In this document: positions 17,995 to 38,396 of the stretch, in pieces | How the letters are laid out: every line of letters starts with the position of its first letter | Numbering within the stretch: position 1 is the stretch's first letter | Source of the DNA: Phocaeicola plebeius | GTDB taxonomy: Bacteria > Bacteroidota > Bacteroidia > Bacteroidales > Bacteroidaceae | Reading direction: 5' to 3' | NCBI GenBank assembly: GCA_022767125.1 | Contig: JALEPZ010000011.1 | Span: 1-42,430, forward strand | DNA: 42,430 bases | Notes under the pieces: model-generated | Databases searched by the model: none | Seen by the model: only the letters and a program-made list of their open reading frames with translations | What the model was told of the DNA's origin: nothing | Made by a program: the position numbers and the translations under genes

Positions 17995-18050
17995 TTGTTT
18001 TTTTTAATATCTGATGAACGTTGTTTCTTCGCTCCCCATGACGGAAACGG

Positions 18051-18123
18051 TAGGGGCAGACCCGTGTGTCTGCCCGGAAACATCCACCGCGGCATTCCGG
18101 GCGGACACACGGGTCCGCCCCTA
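18051..18123. repeat. Dispersed palindromic element, copy 1 (two tandem hairpins)
   Basis: Left arm 18051-18079 and right arm 18095-18123 are inverted copies with two mismatches. Each arm is itself a small hairpin (GGGCAGAC or GGGCGGAC facing its complement across 6 bases). Copies 2 and 3 are at 26320-26392 and 32012-32043. All three lie between genes, which suggests a REP/MITE-like repeat family. Confidence 0.75.
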
Positions 18124-26292: not shown

Positions 26293-26319
26293 TTGGGAAA
26301 AAAAAGAATTGTCATTCTG

Positions 26320-26392
26320 TAGGGGCAGACCTGTATGTCTGCCCGGAATGCCGAAGTGGGTGTTTCCGGGCAGACACATAGGTCTGCCCCTA
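26320..26392. repeat. Dispersed palindromic element, copy 2
   Basis: Arms 26320-26348 and 26364-26392 are inverted copies with two mismatches (TGTA against TATG in the loop of each arm). Each arm is a hairpin GGGCAGAC/GTCTGCCC. It lies between asd and the PorV-like gene, which converge, and could also act as a terminator. Confidence 0.75.
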
Positions 26393-26432
26393 TGGTGTTC
26401 GTCGTGGGTAGCGAATGCCCCACAGGCCCTTG

Positions 26433-32011: not shown

Positions 32012-32043
32012 TTCCGGGCAGACACACAGGTCTTGCCCCTACA
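32012..32043. repeat. Dispersed palindromic element, copy 3 (half copy)
   Basis: Only the right arm of the element is present, with one extra base (GGGCAGAC ACACAG GTCTTGCCC), preceded by the same GCATTCCGGGC junction seen in copy 1. Confidence 0.65.
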
Positions 32044-32135
32044 GGTTTCGTCATGGGCAGAAAAAGAATTTGCTTATTACACGTAAGGCTTACCCAGAAT
32101 TGCGCAAATACAGCCCGAAGAAATATAATCGGTAA

Positions 32136-32193: not shown

Positions 32194-32712
32194 TTACAGC
32201 CACCCGTTCGCCACCTCCGCCCCCACATCGAAGCAGGGGCAGGCCTTGGGCGTGGCGCCCGGCAGGTCGCGATGGCCCACCACACAGGCCTCGGGAAACA
32301 GCTCCCGCAGCAGGGACAGCAGCTGGCGGAGCCGCTCGCGCTGCACCGGGGTACGCGTGTCGGCGGGACGGCCCTGAGGGTCGAGACCGCCCTCGTAGCA
32401 GATGCCGATGGAGCACCGGTTGTAGGGACGGGCGTGCGCCCCCACCTCCAAAAGGCGGCGGTGCTGGGTCAGCGTGCCGTCGCGACGGAGGTAGAAGTGG
32501 TAGCCCACGGTGCGGAAGCCACGGGCGCGGTGGTCGCGCAACAGCCGCTCCACGGGGTAGGAACGGTCGGAGCGCGTGGCGGAGCAATGGATGACGAGGA
32601 AGCGGACACTGTCCGGTCCCGCCATCAGCGTCCCGTCCTCCACGGAGGACAGGAGCTGGCGTTCATTGGCGATGATGTCGCCCACGGTGACGGGGAACTG
32701 GTAGTCAATCAT
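32194..32712 (-). CDS. N-acetylmuramoyl-L-alanine amidase (amidase_2 / PGRP fold)
   Basis: 172 residues. The zinc-amidase pattern is clear: VRFLVIHCSATRSDRSYPVE (first His ligand), RGFRTVGYHFYLRRDGTL (conserved Tyr-His), RCSIGICYEGGLDPQGRP, and VVGHRDLPGATPKACPCFDV (second His and Cys ligands). It cleaves the amide bond between muramic acid and the stem peptide. No signal peptide is seen, so it would need lysis or a helper to reach the wall, as phage endolysins do. A 30-residue N-terminal extension precedes the usual start. It lies 12 bases after the smalltalk gene and ends the cassette with VapE, DUF4248 and HU genes. Confidence 0.92.
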   Translation of the reverse strand: MIDYQFPVTVGDIIANERQLLSSVEDGTLMAGPDSVRFLVIHCSATRSDRSYPVERLLRDHRARGFRTVGYHFYLRRDGTLTQHRRLLEVGAHARPYNRCSIGICYEGGLDPQGRPADTRTPVQRERLRQLLSLLRELFPEACVVGHRDLPGATPKACPCFDVGAEVANGWL

Positions 32713-32724
32713 GGCCCTGCGACT

Positions 32725-32832
32725 TTAAAGAAGGACACACGAGGTCATGGTGATACCTGCGATAACGGTGGTCAGGATGGTGCAGATGGCGTTGATGATG
32801 GTACGCCACTGGTCGGAATTCAGTTTGCTCAT
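32725..32832 (-). CDS. Smalltalk family micro-protein
   Basis: A 35-residue product starting MSKLNSDQWRTIINAICTIL and ending in a hydrophobic run with TVIAGITMTSCVLL. Tiny proteins of this form, a short polar start followed by one hydrophobic helix with TSC near the end, are annotated as smalltalk proteins next to HU and amidase genes in Bacteroides. It could be a single-span membrane peptide or a very short lipoprotein. Next to an amidase without a signal peptide, a holin-like job is conceivable but untested. The stop is 12 bases upstream of the amidase ATG. Confidence 0.7.
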   Translation of the reverse strand: MSKLNSDQWRTIINAICTILTTVIAGITMTSCVLL

Positions 32833-32959: not shown

Positions 32960-33460
32960 TCAGACAATCGGGTCGGTCGGCTCCTCTGACGGGTCAGCAG
33001 GCTCGCCGGTAGAGCCGGACGACGGATCACTCCCGGACGGCAGCGAGCCGCTGTACTTCACCAACTGGATCTTGTCCGGCAGCAGGTCGTACTTGCGCGA
33101 GCCGTTCACCATGGTGAACGAGGGCGAGAAGCTGGGGATGAGTCCCTTGATGAGCGAGGCGTTCGCCTTGTCCGCGCTCTCCACCGTCTTTCCCTTCAGG
33201 AAACGGATGTTCAGCACTCCGAAACCGAGGAGCTGGACGGCATAGCCCTTCTTCAGGTTCTCCACTACGTAGTGGGCGTAGCGGTCGAGCACGTTCTTCA
33301 CGTCGCCCGGGGTGGCGGACGATTCGGAGGCAATCTGCTTGGCCACATCGTCGGTGGTCAGCGTTCCGTAGGTCACGGGAGCCACACTGTACACTTCGCG
33401 GGGGCTGCTCTCCATGTTGAACCGCACCGCACGTTTGGTTACTCTATACGCTTTAGGCAT
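32960..33460 (-). CDS. HU-like DNA-binding protein with acidic Ser/Pro-rich tail
   Basis: 166 residues. The core has the HU/IHF-like layout of the Bacteroides HU-HIG family: TLTTDDVAKQIASESSATPG, DVKNVLDRYAHYVVENLKKG, then the beta arm AVQLLGFGVLNIRFLKG. The last 35 residues are low-complexity (SGSDPSSGSTGEPADPSEEP) and acidic, absent from ordinary HU. The expected role is binding or bending DNA. It is flanked by a 23-base repeat array upstream and a smalltalk gene downstream, within the VapE cassette, so a function at the structured DNA in this locus is a reasonable idea. Confidence 0.85.
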   Translation of the reverse strand: MPKAYRVTKRAVRFNMESSPREVYSVAPVTYGTLTTDDVAKQIASESSATPGDVKNVLDRYAHYVVENLKKGYAVQLLGFGVLNIRFLKGKTVESADKANASLIKGLIPSFSPSFTMVNGSRKYDLLPDKIQLVKYSGSLPSGSDPSSGSTGEPADPSEEPTDPIV

Positions 33461-33578: not shown

Positions 33579-33693
33579 CCTGACGAACGGGTCCGTGATG
33601 CCCTGACGAACGAGTTCATGATCCTCTCACGAACGAAGTCGTGACACCCTGACAAACGAAGTCGTGGGACCGCCACAAACGCAGTCATAAGAC
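33579..33693. repeat. Array of five 23-base tandem repeats (iteron-like)
   Basis: Five units begin at 33579, 33602, 33625, 33648 and 33671 in exact 23-base register, with a partial sixth at 33694. The shared core is CCTGACGAACGAAGTCGTGA, with a few changes per copy. The period is not a multiple of three and no reading frame is kept, so the repetition is at DNA level. It has no spacers, so it is not a CRISPR array. It lies in the 412-base gene-free stretch 33461-33872. Confidence 0.85.
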
Positions 33694-33750
33694 CGTCACA
33701 TCCGGCATCTTCGCGGCGTCCCGACCTCCGCCGGCGGAAAACCAGCTTCT

Positions 33751-33860
33751 ACCCTCCGCCAGAAGAAAGACCCCGGGGACCGCCTCCACCGGCAGGAAGC
33801 CGAAGCCAACCCTCCGCCGGAAGAAGGACCGGGGACCGCCTCCACCGAAGAAGGCCGGAA
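33751..33860. repeat. Tandem duplication of a 58-base GC-rich unit
   Basis: The block at 33751-33808 (starting ACCCTCCGCCAGAAGAAAGA) is repeated from 33809 (starting ACCCTCCGCCGGAAGAAGGA) with small gaps, including the shared GGGGACCGCCTCCACC. No conserved protein frame was seen. Confidence 0.65.
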
Positions 33861-33872
33861 GGAGGGCCAAGA

Positions 33873-34112
33873 TCAAGGCTCACCGAGATGACGGTAGATG
33901 AGCCGGACCTCCCGGATGGTGAGGTGGCGGCGGCGGTCGAATGCACGGCCACCCGCCGTGAGCTGGGCATAGAGTTCGTCACAGCCATGAATCCAGGCCG
34001 TGAGACGGCGCACGGCCTGCGAAGGCTTGGCGCCGGGAAAATACTGTAAGGCAAGTTCTCTTCGGGTCATAATTCGATACGTTTTTATTATCAACAAGTT
34101 TACATTATCCAT
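33873..34112 (-). CDS. DUF4248 family protein
   Basis: 79 residues. The signature is RRELALQYFPGAKPSQAVRR followed by LTAWIHGCDELYAQL and, near the end, HLTIREVRLIYRHLGEP. These match DUF4248, in which SELAxLYFP opens and a PxxVxLIxxxLGEP motif closes the domain. The form suggests a small helix-turn-helix-like DNA-binding protein, but no function is known. ATG 34112 gives IKTYRIMTRRELA, resembling family starts; ATG 34070 is an alternative. Its upstream region is the 148-base dyad, with the nearer arm 33 bases from the start codon, so it may be controlled by or act on that structure. Confidence 0.78.
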   Translation of the reverse strand: MDNVNLLIIKTYRIMTRRELALQYFPGAKPSQAVRRLTAWIHGCDELYAQLTAGGRAFDRRRHLTIREVRLIYRHLGEP

Positions 34113-34144
34113 CAGTTCTATTCATCCATCAGTCCGAGGCAGGA

Positions 34145-34292
34145 CCTTGACACCCTTGACACCCTTGACACCTGTTTTACCAACTTTCCGGGAAAAAAAT
34201 TAATTAGGGGGTCCCTGTACAGGGAGGCCGGAAATAAATAAATTCCCATAACTTTTGCAAAAAGGGTGTCAAGGGTGTCAAGGGTGTCAAGG
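34145..34292. other. Origin-like dyad: inverted 28-base arms of three 10-base repeats around a 14-base palindrome
   Basis: Left arm 34145-34172 is three copies of the 10-base unit CCTTGACACC (slightly overlapping at the end); right arm 34265-34292 is its perfect reverse complement. The 92-base middle holds the perfect palindrome TCCCTGTACAGGGA at 34212-34225. The midpoints of the arms and of the palindrome coincide exactly (between 34218 and 34219). AT-rich tracts (GGGAAAAAAATTAATTAGGG, AAATAAATAAATT) lie on both sides. Short repeats, dyad and AT-rich DNA beside a primase-helicase gene are the classical parts of a replication origin; a complex operator or a transcription hairpin is also possible. 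Confidence 0.7.
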
Positions 34293-34302
34293 TTTCACCC
34301 CG

Positions 34303-36765
34303 TCAGAAGGGCAGTACCGGGTCGCCGCCGGAGCCCGACGAAGGAGAAAATCCCGCATCAGGCAGGACATGGTCCACCTCGAACCGCGAGCGTTCACACA
34401 CCTGCCACAGCCGGCCACGATACCCCCGCTGCTGGTCAAAGCCGAGTTCGGACATCACCATGCCCACCTGCGTAGGCGTGATGTGCAAGTGCGGGGGAAA
34501 ACGGGAGGCAATCTGCGAGGCGGAGAGCAGCAGGAAGCTCTCCCTCTCGGCAGGACGGCGGTAGTAGGCCATCACCAGCTCGCGGGCGGCGTTCGGGGCC
34601 TCGAAACGGCGGTTGCGGCGGTTCAGGCGGTCGATGTCCACTCCTTCAAACCAGTAGCGGAAGCCGTGCTCCAGCAACCATAGGGCCTGGGCGAAGAGGC
34701 CCTCGTAGGGGATGCGCGCCGTCCATGGGTTCTCGATGCGCTCCACCTCGAAGGGCAGCCAGCGGCGGCTGCCGGTGTCATCGGTGAGGAACTGCAGGTT
34801 GTTGCCCGTGGCACAGAACGAGGCCACGTGCGGGCGGCGCACCTTGTTGCGCCCGTAGGCGGGCCGCTCGTTGATGTAGGTCACCGTGGTCATGGCCTTC
34901 AGCTGGTTCAGTTCGGCGCTCTGCATCGAATCGATTTCCTCAAAATTCAACAACAGGTTCTCGGCGATGGTGAAGAGGTCATCCTTCGTCAGCCGCTGCG
35001 AGTTGGTCTTCGACACGTAGTAGGGGCGCAGCTCGGGAGGCAGGAGGTTCTCGAAGAAGGAGCTCTTGTAGCTGCCCTGCGGGCCGAGGAGCACCAGTAT
35101 CTCGTGGTTCACCACCTTCTCGTCGAGGGCGGCGGCCAGCAGGGCCACGAACCAGCGGCGGAAGTAGTAGTCGAACTCCTCGGGCGGTGTCTGGCGGCAG
35201 TGCACGCGGTCGGCCAACCAGCGCAGGTGGTCGGTCACGCCGTCCCAGGGCGGCAGTGCGGCAAGGTACTGGCGCAAGGGATGGTAGGTGGGCACAAAGT
35301 CGCTGAGCAGCACGTTGTGGAGCGAATAGACGTCGAAGCGCAGCCCCTCGTGCTCCAGGGCGCGCCAGAGGGAGTTCTCAAAATTGTCGTCTATTATGCG
35401 CCACACACCGGCCTCCACCGGCCGAGGCCCCGCCAAAGCGTTTTCCGCCGGAAGGTTCTCCACCGGCCGGGGTGCCCCCGGAAGGTTCTCCACCGACTCG
35501 GGAGTTCCTTGGTGCTTCTCCGTCGGCAGGGCCTCTCCCTGGGTGTTCTCCACCGGGGCGTACTCCACCTGCCGACTAAGGAGGTTGCGGCGCAGGCGGA
35601 AGCGGGCGCTGATGAACGCCTCCACCTCGGACAAGGAGGTGCGGCGGCCCGAGGGACCGGCACCGGCAGCCACCTTCGCCGGGAGCCGGCACGTGGCGTG
35701 CTCGTGGGTCAGGGCATAGCAGCTGCGCAGGGTGGCGGCGATGCTGCCAGGGTGCGTGGCCTCGTAGTCGGCGAAGGTGGTGAGCGCCCAGCGCAGCGCG
35801 TCGTCGGCCTCCACCCCGAAGCGGTTCATCTGGTAAAGGCAGCGAGAAATATAAGAATTATGGGTATGCGGCCCGTAGCTGCCGCCTTCCAGCTCCACGA
35901 GACGGCGCACCTCCGCCTCGGCCCTGGCCGCCGTGGGCTTGCGTCCCGTCTTCTTCAAGGCACGGGCGGTCTTGCTCCCGGGACTGAAGGGAACGGGCTG
36001 CGCGTCGGGATGAAAGACGGCACGGGGCGCGTGGCAGAGGGCGGACATGCGGGTGGCGTTGCTGCACTGGCGGTCGTAGTCCAGGCCGGTGAGACGGGCA
36101 AAGTATTCGTTCACCGTCCGCCACGCCACCGTGAAGGTACGCGCGTCCACCTGACCCTCCACCCAGGCCACCACGCGGATGCCGCGGCCCGACACGGTGG
36201 GATAGGCCAACAGGGTGTGGGGGTCGGCGGCGATGCTGGCATAGGCCTCGTCGAAGCGGGCGGGCGGCACGTGGTCGAAGTCGGCCATGAAGCAGCCGGT
36301 GTAGGCGCGGATGTGGCGGTTGGTGCGTCCGCCCTCTACGGTCACGCCGCAGATGAAGGCGGGCAGGTTCATCTTGAGCTGGCGCAGCTCCTGCTGCAGG
36401 TTCCGCACGCGGACGGAGGCGGAGCTCCCCTCCGGGGCGGTCGTTCCCCCTGGAGCGGCTGTCGTGGAAGCCGTTCCTTCCGGGGCGTCCTTCCCCTCCG
36501 GAGAAGCCGTTCCTTCCGGGGCGTCCTTCCCTTCCGGAGCGGCCGTTCCTTCCGGGGCGGCTGTTCCTTCCGGAGCGGCCGTTCCCTCCAAAAGCGCTGC
36601 CGCTTGTGCGGCCTCCAGCCGGTCCAGTGTCAGTTGGTAACGGGCGGTGATAGGAGCCAGCACCCCGTTCCGCAGTTCCTCGTACAGGGCCTCGATGTCC
36701 ACCGCCTGCGGCCGGCAGGCAGTGAGGCTGACGAAGCGCGAGAAGATTCTTTTCTGTCTTTCCAT
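34303..36765 (-). CDS. Primase/VapE-type helicase fusion (BT4734-like + VirE/VapE)
   Basis: 820 residues. An N-terminal part (about 1-58) precedes six-residue repeats of the EGTAAP/EGKDAP type (about 60-100). A BT4734-like, primase-type domain (about 118-260) has the metal motif FMADFDH (Asp162, Asp164) and SGRGIRVVAW. A helical linker with a Pro-rich repeat (about 403-452) leads to a VirE/VapE superfamily 3-like ATPase: Walker A GPQGSYKSS (561-569), Walker B LLLNFEEIDSM (604-614) and CATGNNLQFLTDDTGSRRW. Such fusions serve replication of phages, satellites and plasmids. The start at 36765 follows a strong AGGAGG; the longer open frame would run into the operator. DUF4248, HU, smalltalk and amidase genes lie downstream on the same strand. 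Confidence 0.85.
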   Translation of the reverse strand: MERQKRIFSRFVSLTACRPQAVDIEALYEELRNGVLAPITARYQLTLDRLEAAQAAALLEGTAAPEGTAAPEGTAAPEGKDAPEGTASPEGKDAPEGTASTTAAPGGTTAPEGSSASVRVRNLQQELRQLKMNLPAFICGVTVEGGRTNRHIRAYTGCFMADFDHVPPARFDEAYASIAADPHTLLAYPTVSGRGIRVVAWVEGQVDARTFTVAWRTVNEYFARLTGLDYDRQCSNATRMSALCHAPRAVFHPDAQPVPFSPGSKTARALKKTGRKPTAARAEAEVRRLVELEGGSYGPHTHNSYISRCLYQMNRFGVEADDALRWALTTFADYEATHPGSIAATLRSCYALTHEHATCRLPAKVAAGAGPSGRRTSLSEVEAFISARFRLRRNLLSRQVEYAPVENTQGEALPTEKHQGTPESVENLPGAPRPVENLPAENALAGPRPVEAGVWRIIDDNFENSLWRALEHEGLRFDVYSLHNVLLSDFVPTYHPLRQYLAALPPWDGVTDHLRWLADRVHCRQTPPEEFDYYFRRWFVALLAAALDEKVVNHEILVLLGPQGSYKSSFFENLLPPELRPYYVSKTNSQRLTKDDLFTIAENLLLNFEEIDSMQSAELNQLKAMTTVTYINERPAYGRNKVRRPHVASFCATGNNLQFLTDDTGSRRWLPFEVERIENPWTARIPYEGLFAQALWLLEHGFRYWFEGVDIDRLNRRNRRFEAPNAARELVMAYYRRPAERESFLLLSASQIASRFPPHLHITPTQVGMVMSELGFDQQRGYRGRLWQVCERSRFEVDHVLPDAGFSPSSGSGGDPVLPF
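36466..36588. repeat. In-frame 18-base tandem repeats in the vapE-like gene
   Basis: About seven copies of an 18-base unit encode EGTAAP, EGKDAP or EGTASP in the linker before the primase-like domain. The unit length keeps the frame, so copy number can vary without breaking the gene. Confidence 0.8.
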
Positions 36766-36774
36766 GTTTTCTTT

Positions 36775-36780
36775 CCTCCT
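36775..36780 (-). promoter_or_regulatory. Consensus Shine-Dalgarno before the vapE-like start
   Basis: AGGAGG on the minus strand lies 9 bases before ATG 36765. Strong sites like this are rare in Bacteroidetes, and it decides this start over longer frames. Confidence 0.6.
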
Positions 36781-36852
36781 ACATATTTGGTTCGTAATAA
36801 AAGTATTTGTAACTTTACCCCCGATGGCGGTCTTCCGGCCCCACCGGTTTTG

Positions 36853-36860
36853 CAAATGTA
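36853..36860 (-). promoter_or_regulatory. Predicted -7 element of the vapE-like gene
   Basis: Minus strand TACATTTG, perfect TAnnTTTG. The 20-base palindrome begins 20 bases upstream, where a -33 box would be, so a bound repressor would block the promoter. Confidence 0.5.
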
Positions 36861-36880
36861 GTTCATTGAAAATTGCGGAC

Positions 36881-36900
36881 TGTACATCCATGGATGTACA
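36881..36900. promoter_or_regulatory. 20-base perfect palindrome, probable operator
   Basis: TGTACATCCATGGATGTACA is its own reverse complement. It lies between the vapE-like gene and the divergent HTH gene. A second perfect palindrome, AATTAACGTTAATT, is at 36923-36936. The TGTACA element also occurs at the centre of the 34145-34292 dyad. Confidence 0.7.
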
Positions 36901-36980
36901 ACGGACCATGTCTGTTAGAAAGAATTAACGTTAATTGGCTTCTAATGCATCGGGTAGTAACCGATTTAATCCTCAGCGTT

Positions 36981-37490: not shown

Positions 37491-38396
37491 ATGTTGAACG
37501 GAATCAAGAAACTGCCCTACGGGGTGTCCGACTTTGTGTCGGTGAGGGAGGAGAACCTCTATTATGTGGACAAGACCATGTACCTGCCCGAATTGGAGGA
37601 CCAGGCACACACACTCATCTATATCCGTCCACGAAGGTTCGGGAAGAGCCTGTTCATCAGCATGATGGAGGCGTACTACGACAAGCTGGACGGAGACCGC
37701 AAGGGACTGCTGCGGCGCATCATCGACGACGGACAGATACTGGGAACTGTGGCGGAGTCGTTTCCCGCCATCGAGATGGTGAAGCCGGAGATGTTCGTCA
37801 GCCTCCTCTTCTACTACGGCATGCTGACCATCCAAGGAATACGGGGAATCCAGTTAGTGCTGGGCATCCCGAACAACAACGTGCGCGTGCAGTACTACAA
37901 CTACCTGTTGGAGAACTACAGGCCACTCATCGACCTCTCCGAGTTCCACCTCCGGGAACTGTTCATGGACATGGCCATCAGGGGCGACTGGAGGCCCGCC
38001 TTAGCGTACATGGCGGAAGCCTATGGCAACCTGTCGTCAGTGAGAGACCAGATAGAAGGCGAGCGCAACATACAGGGATTCTTCATGGCCTACCTGAGCC
38101 TGAACGACTACTACCTCGTGGCACCGGAGCTGGAGATGAGACACGGCTACTGTGACTTCTTCCTGCTGCCCAACCTGACGCACTACCAGGCGGCGCACAG
38201 CTACATCCTGGAGCTGAAGTACCTGGCTAAGGGCGCTCCGGCAGAAGAGGCGGACAAGCAGTGGGACGAGGCGATGGAGCAGGTGAAAGGTTATGCCGCC
38301 GCCCCGCGCGTGGAGGCCCTGCGACAAGGCACAAGGCTCCACCGCATCGTGGTGCAGTTCAGGGGCTGGAAGGCGGAACGCATGGAGGAGGTATGA
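37491..38396 (+). CDS. AAA-ATPase-like/PD-(D/E)XK nuclease family protein with internal deletion
   Basis: 301 residues, where this family (AAA-ATPase_like plus DUF1703) usually has about 500-530. The N-terminus is typical (LPYGVSDFVSVREENLYYVD, then IYIRPRRFGKSLFISMMEAY with the GKS of Walker A). After YYDKLDGDR the sequence jumps to KGLLRRIIDDGQI and MFVSLLFYYGMLTIQGIRG, which belong to the region past the ATPase core. Walker B and the rest of the ATPase domain are gone. The C-terminal nuclease fold remains, with YCDFFLLPN and YILELKYL giving a D...ExK set. The frame is open throughout, so a short product is possible. These genes are often multi-copy in Bacteroidetes; near-identical leader sequence also follows this one. 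Confidence 0.75.
   Translation: MLNGIKKLPYGVSDFVSVREENLYYVDKTMYLPELEDQAHTLIYIRPRRFGKSLFISMMEAYYDKLDGDRKGLLRRIIDDGQILGTVAESFPAIEMVKPEMFVSLLFYYGMLTIQGIRGIQLVLGIPNNNVRVQYYNYLLENYRPLIDLSEFHLRELFMDMAIRGDWRPALAYMAEAYGNLSSVRDQIEGERNIQGFFMAYLSLNDYYLVAPELEMRHGYCDFFLLPNLTHYQAAHSYILELKYLAKGAPAEEADKQWDEAMEQVKGYAAAPRVEALRQGTRLHRIVVQFRGWKAERMEEV

Follow-up and report, generated by a model that had tools for sequence, protein, structure and literature searches.

What is a large, perfectly mirrored array of short repeats doing between two genes of a Bacteroidales chromosome? The question is raised by a 42,430-nt stretch of Phocaeicola plebeius DNA (contig JALEPZ010000011.1; the window hereafter means this whole stretch), in which a 150-bp dyad at 34144-34293 lies between vapE (34303-36909, minus strand), encoding a primase-helicase, and the gene of a DUF4248 protein (33879-34070, minus strand). 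A first-pass annotation of the window had suggested a replication origin or a Rep-type binding site. The present analysis supports that suggestion: the dyad recurs at vapE stops while its sequence drifts, and we consider it likely that it is a cis-acting replication origin cognate to the neighbouring VapE primase-helicase, organised like the origins of Staphylococcus aureus pathogenicity islands (SaPIs) and phage-inducible chromosomal islands (PICIs). The best reading places this origin in a chromosomal cassette that has no integrase among the open reading frames (ORFs) scanned.

Anatomy of the dyad

The dyad and the gene next to it comprise the following features:

34144-34172, no strand assigned: outer arm consisting of three 9-bp iterons CCTTGACAC and flank; its perfect inverted copy is 34265-34293.
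34173-34264, no strand assigned: inter-arm core in which A/T tracts flank the central palindrome; putative site of unwinding.
34212-34225, no strand assigned: central palindrome TCCCTGTACAGGGA, which shares the dyad axis; in several relatives the centre is CTGCCTTTAAAGGCAG-like or purely AT-rich instead.
34265-34293, no strand assigned: outer arm, three 9-bp iterons GTGTCAAGG; mirrors 34144-34172 and lies 9 bases from the vapE stop codon.
34303-36909, minus strand: vapE (PF08800, 7e-24; PF05272, 3e-29), the proposed initiator gene.

Direct reading and a repeat search agreed that 34145-34172 and 34265-34292 are perfect reverse complements of 28 bases separated by a loop of 92 bases (34173-34264), as first annotated, and one extra matching base per side extends the perfect arms to 29 bases (34144-34172 and 34265-34293). 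The midpoint of TCCCTGTACAGGGA, 34218.5, is that of the arms, so the 14-base palindrome does stand exactly at the symmetry centre, and the AT-rich tracts described beside it are present. Three 10-base repeats per arm had also been proposed; the three copies hold, but the period is 9. The unit in the left arm, read on the plus strand, is CCTTGACAC, and the 10-base word CCTTGACACC recurs because adjacent 9-bp copies share a C.

The dyad is indeed unlikely to have arisen by chance. For loops of 60-130, no perfect inverted repeat of the window is longer than its 29-base arms, and the longest in three single-base shuffles of the window measured 11, 12 and 12 bases. When the genome itself was searched with a 19-base arm core, allowing up to two mismatches, the only matches were this dyad and one single-arm copy on another contig, which has one mismatch and, judged by eye, appears coding. 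Searches of the window for tRNAs and for Rfam families returned no match.

Recurrence of the dyad beside vapE

Related loci were selected through vapE, the fetched ones being the best-scoring among the matches listed. VapE has many relatives in Bacteroidales: matches, distant ones included, occurred in 65 of 199 related genomes, and matches at 1e-40 in 172 of 399 family-member genomes (partly overlapping with the 199); the better matches were fetched. Identical 3′ sequences were counted once, and L010 and L028, where the vapE end is missing, were left out. We scanned 187 distinct loci, 175 of them analysable, and aligned 65 dyads, of which 56, including that of the window, were kept; the other nine (L013, L049, L085, L090, L099, L124, L163, L164 and L209) were removed by judgement as not iteron-like or duplicate.

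The region past vapE was read directly in 17 relatives from named genomes that retain the vapE 3′ end (L011-L027). In ten of them (L011, L012, L015, L019, L021, L022, L023, L025, L026 and L027) the outer inverted arms, 11 or more bases long and spanning 116-150, consisted of short repeats that vary by locus; the middle was AT-rich and its centre often of the CCTTTAAAGG type. The dyad was weak or irregular in L013, L017 and L024, and the sequence of L014, L016, L018 and L020 stops at most 130 nt from the vapE stop.

Across the larger set, 55 of the 174 distinct vapE loci tested, window included, carried a curated dyad. The dyad started between -50 and +110 nt of the vapE stop in 46 loci, and 25 dyads, several of them displaced dyads of the same kind, lay in the remaining 869,561 bp, which corresponds to 1.64 per kb at the vapE stop versus 0.029 per kb in the rest of these loci. 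Matched windows gave dyads in 47 of 162 at the vapE stop versus 7 of 324 controls. In 43 of the 56 dyads (the 55 plus one further locus) the start fell between -43 and +22 nt from the stop. A terminator scan found no terminator-like site inside the window dyad. Given this concentration at the vapE stop and the lack of a terminator-like site, the dyad belongs neither to a scattered repeat family nor to terminators. The first-pass annotation had named two outcomes as fatal to its proposal, absence of the dyad from related vapE loci and its presence at unrelated loci as a simple terminator or repeat family; both tests came out in favour of the proposal.

Conserved architecture and concerted change of the arms

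What stays constant among the 56 dyads is the arrangement of mirrored iterons, usually of 9 bp, within a total span of 110-160 (55 of 56). Self-match at lag 9 was 0.535, compared with 0.272 expected (z about 10); this lag was the best in 33 of 56, with no comparable excess at other lags from 3 to 15. AT content averaged 74% between the outer 24-nt arms versus 49% in the 400 nt preceding the dyad, and in 53 of the 56 it was higher between the arms. The left arm matched its own right arm at 14 or more of 16 positions in 51 of 56 dyads, versus 9 matches in 1,120 comparisons with the right arms of other loci. Therefore, both arms change together. It had been anticipated that the dyad would be conserved in related vapE loci, and this is true of its architecture but not of its 10-base word, so that a search of vapE neighbourhoods for the word itself would in most cases find nothing. 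Iteron sequences vary between SaPIs as well.

A universal inner box, TATAACTTT, was considered and found to be enriched rather than universal: 10 of 112 arms matched it at 9/9, versus 0.2% of shuffled arms, and both arms reached at least 7/9 in 15 of 56 dyads.

If the dyad acted as an RNA hairpin, its arms should tolerate G-U but not A-C mismatches. The outer 26 columns of the 56 dyads contained 35 G-T-type and 32 A-C-type mismatches, and all 65 aligned dyads 88 and 89, respectively; compensatory pairing with G-U tolerance, as expected of structured RNA or a terminator, was not found. The lack of a G-T excess, together with the 9-bp direct repeat in each arm, suggests that the site is recognised in the form of double-stranded DNA.

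VapE as the candidate initiator

Pfam, together with structure-model and PDB matches, divides VapE into a BT4734-like, primase-like N-terminal domain, a VapE/D5-type helicase and a C-terminal winged helix (about 793-839). The N-terminal domain carries motifs I (hhhDhD/E) and III (hD/E) of BT4734-like archaeo-eukaryotic primases (PF08800), as these are defined in PMC5862659; the NCBIfam PrimPol_Db match falls under its cut-off. Residues D210, D212 and D279 are nearly invariant across 41 VapE proteins.

We infer that VapE binds, melts, primes and fires at the dyad, in the following way. The C-terminal winged helix would bind the 9-bp iterons of both mirrored arms, a pair of oppositely oriented helicase assemblies would form and melt the AT-rich core, and the primase-like N-terminal domain would prime synthesis.

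Whether VapE and iterons diverge together was analysed in 54 of the 56 dyad loci (L027 and L185 were excluded for short frames). At least 12 of 14 iteron bases were common to 77 of 1,431 pairs versus 0 of 300 shuffled pairs. Among close pairs, defined by a helicase identity of at least 0.75, 7 had the same iterons and 18 different ones, with 5 intermediate pairs left out. Taking helicase divergence as the yardstick, different-iteron pairs showed extra divergence at residues 801-850 (+0.28, t 6.5). L057 and L146, for instance, have different iterons and identical helicases, and diverge by 2% at 751-800, 24% at 801-850 and 20% in the primase; L035 and L037 have the same iterons despite 40% primase divergence, and differ by 12% at 801-850. 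Where curated-dyad pairs could be placed in one genome, their iterons were different in 6 of 7. The indication that VapE may bind the iterons is an indirect one, namely the co-divergence with them of residues 801-850 and of other regions.

Viral contigs, plasmid records and mobility

Mirrored iteron dyads also accompany vapE in viral contigs. Among the matches listed to the VapE profile in IMG/VR, 80 loci were kept, 61 of them distinct and testable, and a dyad was present near the vapE stop in 15 of the 61 (for example L229, L233, L243, L266 and L291), versus 0 of 120 control windows. Dyads just past vapE in L229, L230, L233, L243, L266, L273, L274, L281 and L291 include some of period 10 instead of 9. 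Viral-contig matches to the literal arm word (L006-L009) were set aside; by eye, three look coding and L007 has repeats that are unmirrored in the stretch.

Five records deposited as plasmids were examined as possible proof of a replicon and rejected as such. L123, L124 and L130 (OY725823, OY725958 and OY725909) are probably chromosomal contigs, because ordinary genes (pflB, proC or a TonB-dependent receptor) stand beside vapE; no integrase or relaxase appears among the surrounding genes listed in their incomplete gene tables. L125 contains priA and an IS1182 transposase. In L126 (NZ_CP072340, a Prevotella nigrescens plasmid record) a distant vapE adjoins toprim and relaxase genes, and the scan found no dyad. 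For the small phage records L127-L129 the scan gave no dyad at distances of up to 110 nt from the vapE stop; a closer-spaced mirrored pair, outside the scanned spans, was seen by eye in L127.

A sister genome (G013) is 98.9% identical to the window up to 32068, just outside the amidase gene at the end of the cassette, and carries different DNA beyond; its copy of the vapE 5′ part is on another contig, which ends inside the gene. The synteny break falls at one copy of a dispersed repeat of ~45 bp (32020-32068, 18032-18079 and 26317-26408). This break fits rearrangement or mobility and proves neither, and because the G013 assembly is in pieces, neither insertion nor excision can be claimed from it.

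The cassette and its surroundings

Along the minus strand the cassette runs vapE, dyad and then four further genes:

33879-34070, minus strand: DUF4248 protein, 64 aa (PF14053, 3.4e-19), on the far side of the dyad.
32960-33460, minus strand: HU-HIG family DNA-binding protein (PF18291, 5.7e-13; TIGR01201).
32725-32832, minus strand: smalltalk-like peptide, 35 aa, a weak match (NF033879, E 0.0072, 16.1 bits, under the curated cut-off of 24.7).
32194-32712, minus strand: N-acetylmuramoyl-L-alanine amidase (PF01510, 7.5e-17; phage lysis family phrog_822, 1.4e-45).

Ordinary genes flank it, encoding BACON and subtilase proteins on one side and a PDDEXK/AAA protein and a C13 peptidase on the other. 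The adjoining AAA-ATPase/PDDEXK_9 gene (37491-38396, plus strand) has 301 aa versus a 580-aa frame in the sister genome (G013:C93), and about 800 bases of that copy are absent from the window. Between the HU and DUF4248 genes, repeat units of roughly 22-23 bp (CCTGACGAACG...) form a degenerate array at 33579-33700. Another vapE of the same genome (L032, contig C35, about 2160-2280) is followed by opposed GGTGACAGAT-type repeats, which by eye have a shorter spacing.

For 48 dyad loci the sequence extends 1,350 nt or more downstream; DUF4248 was present in 28 of these (in three upstream of vapE) and an HU-like gene in 22. Because 12 of the 48 showed neither of these, nor an amidase, in the available stretch, DUF4248 and HU do not look obligatory for the dyad.

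Points against an origin and alternative explanations

Several observations weigh against an origin served by VapE. Since the loci were picked by vapE, the position beside vapE is partly built in, and near-identical pairs persist among the 56 dyads because only identical 3′ ends were merged. The dyad is not universal: 119 of the 174 distinct loci failed the dyad test, most, though not all, of them distant (87 belong to the two lower VapE-similarity classes), and failures include 24 of the 54 loci in the most similar class. Among 18 loci that are not in the curated set and whose flanks were extended, the dyad lay upstream of vapE in six (L334, L335, L336, L339, L344 and L346; cores 52-79% AT) and 12 had no recognisable dyad. 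Iteron similarity hardly tracks VapE identity (Spearman 0.10-0.14; 1,223 complete of 1,431 pairs). Different-iteron pairs also diverge more at 30-110 (+0.27, t 5.1) and in the primase (+0.23, t 4.9), with further excess at 751-800 (+0.16), 360-470 (+0.12) and 511-575 (+0.09), so that the C-terminal assignment is not unique; the sample is small, with just 7 same-iteron pairs, and pairs share loci and hence are not independent. A Pfam scan of 40 window ORFs, a part of the window's ORFs in which some are alternative readings of a single stretch, gave no match to an integrase or relaxase family; no attachment site was identified, and no search aimed at one was made.

The alternative that survives best concerns present activity and is compatible with an origin: the dyad may be the fossil of a decayed satellite or plasmid that no longer fires. 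We regard this as a real possibility, though one we lean against. It agrees with the lack of integrase and relaxase among the scanned window ORFs and among the genes listed around L123, L124 and L130, with several close vapE loci that have no detectable dyad, and with six dyad loci that have a stop within the expected vapE length. However, an open vapE frame of at least 680 aa is kept in 47 of the 56 dyad loci, the catalytic residues are nearly invariant, and the arms stay matched while their sequence changes, which suggests selection; moreover, the distant vapE of L126 beside a plasmid relaxase gene places some relatives in mobile elements.

It is improbable that the dyad serves another DNA-binding protein of the cassette, DUF4248 or HU-like, and that its role is in gene control, in partition or in the local architecture of the DNA instead of in replication. 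Mirrored iterons are typical of operators and partition sites too, DUF4248 adjoins the far side of the dyad, and both genes are frequent near dyads. Against this stand the 12 dyad loci that show none of these neighbours, the constant place of the dyad at the vapE stop whether the DUF4248 gene is co-directional or convergent, and the dyads beside vapE in viral contigs. As for gene control, a scan of 33700-34700 gave no sigma-70-type promoter-like site, although Bacteroidales promoters differ from this type.

It is very improbable that the dyad is a mobile element's recombination end or hairpin-telomere-like site: a large perfect dyad with a central palindrome and a synteny break just outside the cassette would suit it, but the dyad lies between two cassette genes and not at the cassette edge, the break coincides with the dispersed repeat, and no recombinase was found in the ORFs scanned. 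Least credible is an RNA or single-strand hairpin, acting as a 3′ untranslated structure or a bidirectional terminator between vapE and DUF4248, for which a single strand of the dyad does fold at a predicted -45.1 kcal/mol (z -10) and some relatives have a GC-rich central palindrome, but which we rejected on the mismatch types, and which has no need of a 9-bp direct repeat kept in the arms, lacks a terminator-like site or an Rfam match, and would not stand upstream of vapE as the dyad does in six loci.

If the dyad is a replication origin, as we favour, vapE cassettes with recognisable locus-specific origins become testable replicons. They would provide dozens of natural pairs of initiator and origin, with concerted change of the two DNA arms, a set usable for studying the evolution of initiator specificity and whether chromosomal copies still fire. 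A bolder extension, which we offer as speculation and think rather unlikely, is that Bacteroidales chromosomes hold a large family of integrase-less minimal replicons, each made of vapE and a private origin. The iteron word would change fast, with both arms and the initiator C-terminus in step, so that copies in the same genome avoid cross-firing, and these replicons would fire in place, for example on phage infection, amplifying a small cassette of amidase and small peptide.

Comparison with known systems

Titles and abstract openings of open-licence literature held no description of such origins in Bacteroidales that we recognised. The vapE modules of IMG/VR resemble the window in their mirrored iteron dyads just past vapE, but their VapE proteins are at most 38% identical to the query (among the loci kept) and their iterons are different. 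The model of the window VapE aligns with PriRep1 (7pds) and the SaPI5 primase-helicase (7ola, 7om0) over the helicase core and the C-terminal region, at an identity of about 10-14% over the aligned part. The PDB names the PriRep1 molecule 'Similar to D. nodosus vapE', and we take it to originate from a staphylococcal island. Unlike these proteins, the window VapE has a BT4734-like N-terminal domain, which PMC5862659 lists separately as a primase family of its own.

In SCCmec, PMC7581432 describes a putative Cch2 origin with direct-repeat iterons downstream of a SaPI5 Rep-related helicase gene, bound by the C-terminal domain of that helicase. The window shares the direct-repeat iterons downstream of a helicase gene. 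According to the same source, however, Cch2 uses a separate primase and three 5-nt iterons, and deletion of the inverted repeats left binding unaffected there, whereas in the window the iterons themselves form the inverted repeat.

Compared with SaPI/PICI origins, the window dyad differs in lying within a Bacteroidales chromosomal cassette (vapE, DUF4248, HU, small peptide and amidase). The integrase gene that would mark a whole PICI, as well as excisionase, repressor and terminase genes, were not found among the window ORFs scanned. In addition, Bacteroidales dyads have a 9-bp iteron period, are near-perfect mirror images and in some cases stand upstream of vapE. The origins of SaPIs and PICIs lie directly 3′ of the gene of a self-loading helicase initiator (Ubeda 2007, cited in PMC7581432; PMC6092414). 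The window dyad likewise begins 9 bases past the stop codon of such a gene, and the cognate protein is a Rep/VapE-type helicase that carries a C-terminal DNA-binding domain. If the dyad is an origin, PICI-style initiation extends to a major gut lineage.
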